Positions 6,539 to 7,960 of a DNA stretch of 64,000 nucleotides are shown one piece after another. The position numbers were made by a program, and so were the translations under genes. Source of the stretch: Dehalococcoidia bacterium (GTDB lineage Bacteria > Chloroflexota > Dehalococcoidia > Lucifugimonadales > UBA3495). The stretch lies in assembly GCA_022823505.1 (NCBI GenBank), contig JAJEIA010000077.1:1-64000 (forward strand), written 5' to 3'. Under the pieces are notes generated by a model. It had not been told where the DNA came from and did no database searches. It saw only the letters and a list, made by a program, of their open reading frames with translations. Each line of letters begins with the position of its first letter. The stretch's first letter is position 1.

Positions 6539-7873
6539 CTACGGCTTGGTGCCCACCGCGCAGTGGAAGGGGGTTGAGATGAAGAAGGTGCCATCGGCCT
6601 GGGCCTGGGCTGCGGCCGCGCGCCACTCGTCGGCCTCCTCGGCGTTCAGGGTGGGCAGGATTCCGCCCTGCATGAATTGCAGGCGGTCCGGCTCCGCAAA
6701 CGTGCTGATGAACGGGAACATCCTGGTGTTCTCCAGTCCCAGCTTGGCGAAGCGCTGGTAGAGGGAGGAGTCGTCACATCCCTGGGGATGGCCCGGGTCG
6801 TCGACCCACGGCGGCGACTCGATCCTGGTCTTGAGATCGGCGCGCAGGGGCAGGTTGACCCACCGGTTCATGTCGTGGGCGTGGCCCAGCACCGCGATCC
6901 GGCCGCCGGGCTTCACGACCCGTACCAGCTCGGGCAGCATCAGGTCGGCGTTCACGCGCTGGATGACGGTGCTGGAGAAGACGACGTCGAAACTGTTGTC
7001 ATCGAAGGGCAGGGCCTCGGCGCTGCCCTCGTGGAAGCTCACCAGGTTGTCCATTCCCTCGCGCCGGGCGATCTCGCCGGCTTCCCGGAGGAAGTAGGTG
7101 TTGACGTCCACGCCCGAGACCGGGTTCTGCCGGTTGGTCCGGCGAGCCACCCAGCGGCAGAGGACGCCGGTGCCGCAGCCGGCCTCCAGCACCCTCTCGC
7201 CGGGCTGGATCTGCGCGGCGTCGATCAGGCTGCCCACGGCGGACAGGTAGCCGGGGGTGCGTCCCCGGCCCTCGAGGCTGCCCACCATGCCCAGCATCGG
7301 CCCGGACAGGGTGACGACGCAATATTTCTCGGTGAACGCCCCGACCACGGGGTCCCACTGGGACGGGCCGGCGCCCAGTGGGAGCAGGACCAGCGGAGGA
7401 CCGGATCCCCGCACGCTGAAATAGATGCCGTCAACCTCGCCTTCCGCGACGGAAGGGGATGCGACAGCCGGGCCATTCGCGGCGTCCACGCCGGCCAGGA
7501 AGTCGAGCATGGCGGGAACGACGGCTGCTCCCTGCTCGACCGCGATGTCGGCGTAGTTGTTCGGGTAGCCGTAGTCGGACAGCGATACCCTGGTTGCGGA
7601 CGGGAGGGCCGCCAGGTTGCGGTCGATGGTCGCAGTCGCCCCGCCGCGGTCGGCGTTGAACACCAGGAGGCGCTCGCCCAGGGGGGCCAGCGCCTGGGCA
7701 TCGAACCCCAGGGGGCAGATCAGGGTCATGGACGCGACGACGTCCGGAACATCGACTGCCAGACCCCGCCAGTCGCCGAGATTACGGGAGGCGAAATGGG
7801 CGCGCTCGATGCCGAGTTCGCGCAGGACCCCGACGATCCTCTCATCAACGGGAGCTTCTATCTGTGTCGTCAT
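6539..7873 (-). CDS. Methyltransferase fused to a permuted alpha/beta-hydrolase-like region
   Basis: 444 residues. The C-terminal half (from about 210) is a class I SAM methyltransferase: VLEAGCGTG (motif I), an acidic residue in SGVDVN (motif II), LPFDDNSFDVVFSS (post-II) and VKPGGRIAV. The N-terminal half looks like an alpha/beta-hydrolase in swapped order. Residues about 15-125 resemble the second half of such a fold (nucleophile-elbow-like HFASRNLG, then ERLLVFNADRGG, then a GYPNN segment where the final His would be). Residues about 145-205 resemble the first half (YFSVRGSGPPLVLL). The expected Ser-Asp-His set is not intact, so this part may bind rather than hydrolyse. Target unknown. 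The gene stands alone on the minus strand. Confidence 0.75.
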   Translation of the reverse strand: MTTQIEAPVDERIVGVLRELGIERAHFASRNLGDWRGLAVDVPDVVASMTLICPLGFDAQALAPLGERLLVFNADRGGATATIDRNLAALPSATRVSLSDYGYPNNYADIAVEQGAAVVPAMLDFLAGVDAANGPAVASPSVAEGEVDGIYFSVRGSGPPLVLLPLGAGPSQWDPVVGAFTEKYCVVTLSGPMLGMVGSLEGRGRTPGYLSAVGSLIDAAQIQPGERVLEAGCGTGVLCRWVARRTNRQNPVSGVDVNTYFLREAGEIARREGMDNLVSFHEGSAEALPFDDNSFDVVFSSTVIQRVNADLMLPELVRVVKPGGRIAVLGHAHDMNRWVNLPLRADLKTRIESPPWVDDPGHPQGCDDSSLYQRFAKLGLENTRMFPFISTFAEPDRLQFMQGGILPTLNAEEADEWRAAAAQAQADGTFFISTPFHCAVGTKP

Positions 7874-7911
7874 AGTGTCCTCCCGGCCGGGTCGGCCTCA
7901 GTAATGAGGGG

Positions 7912-7960
7912 CTTGGGCAGCTTCGCACGGTTTGACAGTTACGGCAGGGCTTACCTATGA
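7912..7960. repeat. Second copy of the TTTGACAG repeat
   Basis: This stretch matches 5690-5735 over about 45 bp, including CGGTTTGACAG and GGGC(C/T)TACCT. The stem is weaker than in the first copy. The two copies bracket the 5.8-7.9 kb segment. Confidence 0.45.

Follow-up and report, generated by a model that had tools for sequence, protein, structure and literature searches.

A class I SAM methyltransferase carrying a circularly permuted, triad-less α/β-hydrolase core in SAR202-type and other environmental bacteria

Described permutations and fusions of α/β-hydrolases

Few enzyme folds have been studied as much as the α/β-hydrolases (ABHs). Canonical ABH esterases and BphD-type hydrolases carry a lid and a catalytic triad. 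Fungal PHB depolymerase is a secreted enzyme whose structure 2d80 was reportedly described as circularly permuted by Hisano et al. in 2006, and to our knowledge no methyltransferase is attached to it. In the enzyme from Penicillium funiculosum, the triad S39-D121-H155 is followed by the oxyanion residue C250 (PMC9878459), and since the triad precedes the oxyanion residue, this order is the same as in the front domain of the 444-residue protein described here, which is encoded in the window (the whole 64,000-nucleotide stretch of DNA analysed). A classification of the ABH superfamily from 2024 mentions, in the portions available, permutation for the peripheral strands β1/β2; its Figure 4 marks permuted sequences, and its main text does not contain the word "methyltransferase" (PMC11878206). 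The fusion of a putative ABH to a SAM methyltransferase, as seen in the window protein, also exists in Bacteroides fragilis, where BioG (the putative ABH) is joined to the methyltransferase BioC (PMC3494674). Both parts of BioG-BioC are active there, whereas the ABH part of the window protein has no triad and its methyltransferase part falls below the BioC cut-off.

Computation shows a front domain of which both parts are homologous to ABHs, standing in permuted order without lid or triad, and joined to a methyltransferase with intact SAM motifs in a fusion that is kept across distant genomes. An earlier note on this DNA had considered that a permuted, probably non-catalytic fold joined to a methyltransferase would be unusual. 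This holds for the combination, which was not found in the searches made, and no description of a permuted ABH-methyltransferase family was found among the open-licence PubMed Central titles and abstract starts listed; it does not hold for a permuted ABH core alone, for which fungal PHB depolymerase is a precedent. Within these searches, what appears new is the occurrence of permutation, dead active site and methyltransferase in one protein.

Strand order and active site of the front domain

The gene comprises 444 codons on the minus strand, with its ATG at 7873 and its stop codon ending at 6539, and GGGAGGAC lies 3 bases upstream of the ATG (Table 1). The open frame extends upstream by only 8 more codons (452 aa), so there is no hidden front half in frame. 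An antisense ORF of 427 aa at 6677-7960 (+) lies opposite the gene and is read as a shadow frame of GC-rich coding DNA. The genome to which the window belongs (G000) consists of 3.7 Mb in 164 contigs; it is of SAR202 type within Chloroflexota and stands near SAR202/Dehalococcoidia MAGs. A front domain of 205 residues had been proposed for the protein; its ABH-like nature was upheld, but from the sequence its end appears to be nearer residue 195 than 205, because the LExR motif is invariant in the family and also present in three of four stand-alone methyltransferases, with which this cap belongs.

Table 1 Features of the permuted ABH-methyltransferase gene (strand and helix names were assigned by reading AF2 elements against ABH nomenclature).
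Feature	Window coordinates	Strand	Basis
Whole gene, 444 aa: permuted pseudo-ABH domain and class I SAM methyltransferase	6539..7873	-	ORF; family alignments A1 and A4
Residues 1-136, ABH second half: αB, β5 (degenerate nucleophile elbow), αC, β6, αD, β7, αE, β8, αF; without the β6-β7 lid	7466..7873	-	AF2 elements; profile alignment to canonical ABHs; VIA-align ranges within 1-135
Residues 137-195, linker (to ~143) and ABH first half: β1, β2, β3 (degenerate oxyanion loop PL), αA, β4	7289..7465	-	Profile matches near canonical ABH starts; AF2 elements
Residues 196-444: methyltransferase N-cap LExR (200-203), SAM-binding core GCGTG (232-236) and D256, family-specific C-terminal part with GC....LY (365-372) and HC (437-438)	6542..7288	-	Pfam; column check; comparison with stand-alone methyltransferases
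N31 codon, at the canonical nucleophilic Ser position	7781..7783	-	Profile alignment; residue counts over 17 members

Residues 1-195 form a circularly permuted, lid-less ABH core in which β5-β8 precede β1-β4. The proposal that the second half of an ABH comes first and is followed by its first half was borne out by the order of profile matches, by a rotation test, and by the predicted structure and its structural alignment. When the PDB was searched with profiles of the front 205-215 residues, all 14 sequences at E ≤ 0.01 were named as ABH-type enzymes, the closest being Est1 (6eb3/8v16, E ~1e-9) and BphD-type C-C hydrolases (E 2e-5). Est1-type ABHs have the canonical strand order and match the domain in swapped order: profile positions 14-77 align with the middle of the Est1 chain (77-148) and positions 147-188 with its start (6-57). 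PHB depolymerase was absent among the PDB sequence matches listed (60 of 77, E up to 10).

For the rotation test, rotated versions of the domain profile (17 rows, residues 1-206) were made by cutting it at 43 positions, and each was compared with a profile of 19 canonical ABHs, 18 of them from the window genome and one (L016) from G080, a genome of the same order. These 19 were drawn from 28 loci, of which nine were dropped as the filter recognised no ORF; L101-L103 were left out. The native order scored 68.2 over 116 columns, against 101.9-102.0 over 175-180 columns (prob 98.45) for cuts at 130-145, an optimum at the linker that joins the last ABH helix to β1, the expected cut site of a permuted protein. 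Scores were 99.8 and 97.1 for cuts at 150 and 155, 72-80 for cuts at 160-175 and 47 for the cut at 20; cuts at 50-125 gave 79-89 over 106-116 columns, thus intermediate cuts also scored above the native order. Controls stayed far lower, with a maximum of 19.0 (mean 13.5) for 30 column shuffles and 11.8-12.5 for 24 rotations of the methyltransferase part. For 16 of the 19 canonical ABHs a position was found for each of the two parts; in every one of these 16, residues 137-206 matched upstream of residues 1-136, with many scores near noise. The domain thus shows sequence homology to the ABH core and lacks the canonical β1-β8 order. Pfam returned no match for the ABH-like domain of five members, native or half-swapped, at E up to 10, which counts neither for nor against an ABH identity.

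Structure prediction and similarity searches likewise gave an ABH-like fold and not an unrelated one. AF2 modelled the domain with pLDDT 89.2 and pTM 0.87 and the full-length protein with pLDDT 87.5 and pTM 0.84, and the order of elements was read as αB-β5-αC-β6-αD-β7-αE-β8-αF-β1-β2-β3-αA-β4, then methyltransferase. VIA-align found 817 of 1000 chains with Z ≥ 2. Among the 50 matches listed, 48, mostly hydrolases by title, have model ranges within residues 1-135 (Z 7.2-10.2), and only PHB depolymerase spans nearly the whole domain (2d80: residues 15-206, 178 residues, Z 8.6; 2d81: residues 18-205, 176 residues, Z 8.4; rmsd 4.4-4.5), where a range gives the first and last residue only and Z 8.6 is just above the tool's warning level of 8. 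For canonical ABHs Z rises to 10.2, over 123 residues, compared with Z 8.6 over 178 for PHB depolymerase. According to the sequential alignment and the rotation test, the window protein resembles this depolymerase in placing the nucleophile half before the oxyanion half, but the depolymerase is an active Ser-Asp-His enzyme and the two share 10% identity. The best Foldseek match, and the sole one below 0.001, was the hydrolase 3bdi (E 3.7e-4); the BFVD viral models gave no match at E 0.001.

The Ser-His-Asp set had been suspected not to be intact, and profile alignment together with residue counts over the 17 members indicates that all three triad positions are lost. At the nucleophile position, N31 in the window protein, the family has Asn in eight members, Met in two, and Gly, Leu, Trp, His, Tyr, Ala and Ser in one each; the single Ser (L040) lies in CVRSPE, not in GxSxG. 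The acid position is G77, Gly in 16 of 17, with the nearby D75 being Asp in 14 of 17, and no conserved His was found at the catalytic His site among the 17 members (position 101 is His in one). The oxyanion HG is replaced by PL (Pro in 16/17, Leu in 17/17), and the β6-β7 lid is absent in the alignment to canonical ABHs. The GxSxG nucleophile, acid and His of catalytic ABHs are accordingly missing from this domain.

The methyltransferase part and the distribution of the family

The SAM methyltransferase noticed behind the front domain was recognised by Pfam as Methyltransf_11 (residues 229-327, E 1.6e-20), and none of the 19 Pfam families listed for the protein has its best stretch before residue 213. 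By this match, the GxGxG motif I and the acidic D256 the protein belongs to the class I SAM methyltransferases, and the GCxG-type motif I (G232, C233, G234, G236) and D256 are present in 17/17 rows. Methyltransferases and the methyltransferase-like SpnF are among the Foldseek matches listed for the full-length model (50 rows). Scores remained below the cut-offs of two specific models, ArsM arsenite methyltransferase (72.2 bits against a curated 263) and BioC (TIGR02072, 50.8 bits against 184.95). Four stand-alone class I methyltransferases of Chloroflexota (L041, L044, L063 and L046) have the same core, three with an LExR-type N-cap, and no ABH part was noticed in them by eye. G365-C366...L371-Y372 and H437-C438 are present in all 16 complete rows of the family and in none of these four. 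The two motifs lie at 6560-6781 (-) of the window (residues 365-438) and are possibly substrate or metal ligands.

All 17 aligned members, the window protein included, keep the permuted order, although the 17 rows of this alignment (A4) were collected with a whole-length profile, a search biased towards proteins with this order, and one of them (L032) ends at a contig end. Their identity to the window protein is 36-86% in this alignment; in the search for public relatives the best, that of SAR202 cluster bacterium bin87 (L018), is 87% identical. In a survey of the order, 16 of 99 genomes matched (that of the window included), of which the G080 match is a canonical ABH, leaving 15/99. Of these, 11 belong to the genus (14 genomes surveyed) and 4 to the rest of the family (36 genomes); the other 49 genomes of the order have none. 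G005 has a split copy in two frames (C137:1324-1934) and G035 part of the gene only. Across the phylum, 371 of 400 genomes matched the full-length profile, nearly all via the methyltransferase; full-length matches above 300 bits occur in six (G000 included), and among the matches listed all others begin at residue 186 or later, except a broken second copy in G258. This additional copy, at G258:C156:6458-7229, is in broken frames, and such copies in G258 and G005 reflect either decay or assembly error. Among the public relatives, which overlap with the survey of 99 genomes, 15 of 17 loci are members (L026 and L032 partial). Members L031 and L032 come from MAGs labelled Deltaproteobacteria, and in the phylum of the L031 genome the only matches among 395 genomes are these two genomes themselves. 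Plasmid records gave no match to the protein at E 0.01.

In the window the gene is surrounded by genes for a DUF3087-like protein, a DUF5763 protein, an exonuclease and a DNA ligase, flanks common mainly to the window and four close relatives (L018-L021); single flanking ORFs are common with or among L022, L024, L026 and L032, and no neighbourhood common to all loci compared was noticed. In L027 and L029, both from SAR202/Dehalococcoidia MAGs, an MmgE/PrpD gene lies 13 bases upstream of the family gene and a 264-aa gene, a short-chain dehydrogenase in L027, lies downstream, forming an operon-like set at L027:6572-10170 and L029:6533-10175. Several distant loci have metabolic neighbours (MmgE/PrpD, short-chain dehydrogenase, NIPSNAP, molybdopterin enzymes, a methylenetetrahydrofolate reductase-like protein, a luciferase-like monooxygenase and SAH hydrolase), and transporters and a stress protein are also found. 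These neighbours hint at small-molecule metabolism. In genome G242, a canonical ABH gene (Abhydrolase_1; L109:136-951, +) lies ~155 bases upstream of the permuted ABH-methyltransferase gene on the same strand.

Possible role and origin of the permuted domain

The reading that we favour, and regard as reasonably probable, is that of an intact-looking small-molecule SAM methyltransferase carrying a permuted, catalytically dead ABH core (1-195) which likely acts as a ligand-binding or gating module. The former hydrolase pocket would no longer cut esters and may instead bind a ligand, which could be the methyl acceptor or else a regulator. According to the secondary-structure prediction, the last ABH strand, β4 (185-190), runs directly into two helices that precede the first strand of the methyltransferase, and through this continuity binding in the ABH domain could keep the acceptor in position or control access to the methyltransferase.

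Our second choice, which we consider unlikely, is that the ABH-like domain has no ligand pocket and serves only to stabilise the methyltransferase, as a structural or oligomerisation scaffold. The loss of the triad fits such a role, as does the fact that loops on the old active-site side (hand-chosen from the DSSP string) show only slightly higher conservation than the rest, with a mean entropy of 1.28 versus 1.60 elsewhere and 1.37 for opposite-side loops, not clearly above background since 13 of 185 circular shifts do as well. Conserved polar and charged residues nevertheless remain in the domain (H26, D109 and Q172 in 17/17, D34 in 16/17), which argues against a mere scaffold.

As to its origin, the family may have arisen by tandem duplication of an ABH gene, loss of the outer halves and joining to a stand-alone methyltransferase gene. 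The two domain parts rank the canonical ABHs differently (Spearman -0.23, p 0.37, 17 ABHs) and have different ABHs at the top, so descent from a single ABH is unproven. This would suit the joining of the C-half of one ABH gene to the N-half of another, without permutation of any one ABH, a route that we regard as rather doubtful, as in the AF2 model the two parts fold together as one confidently predicted domain that has a single set of strands, and the scores are too weak to name the parent of either part. That the protein is bifunctional, the methyltransferase making a methyl ester and the ABH part cleaving one, is highly improbable despite the example of BioG-BioC with both its activities (PMC3494674), given that Ser, acid and His are not conserved at the triad positions and that the BioC model is so far from its cut-off.

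Returning to the ligand-binding or gating module, we tentatively suggest, without claiming it as the likelier outcome, that the family represents a second natural permutation of the ABH core, independent of that of fungal PHB depolymerase, in which catalysis was lost and the domain now serves as a ligand-sensing or acceptor-presenting module on a small-molecule methyltransferase in SAR202-type and other environmental bacteria. The permuted ABH domain goes undetected by Pfam-A, and a conserved family whose core was permuted, whose active site was lost and to which a methyltransferase was added offers a natural experiment on the extent to which the ABH fold can be rearranged and reused.
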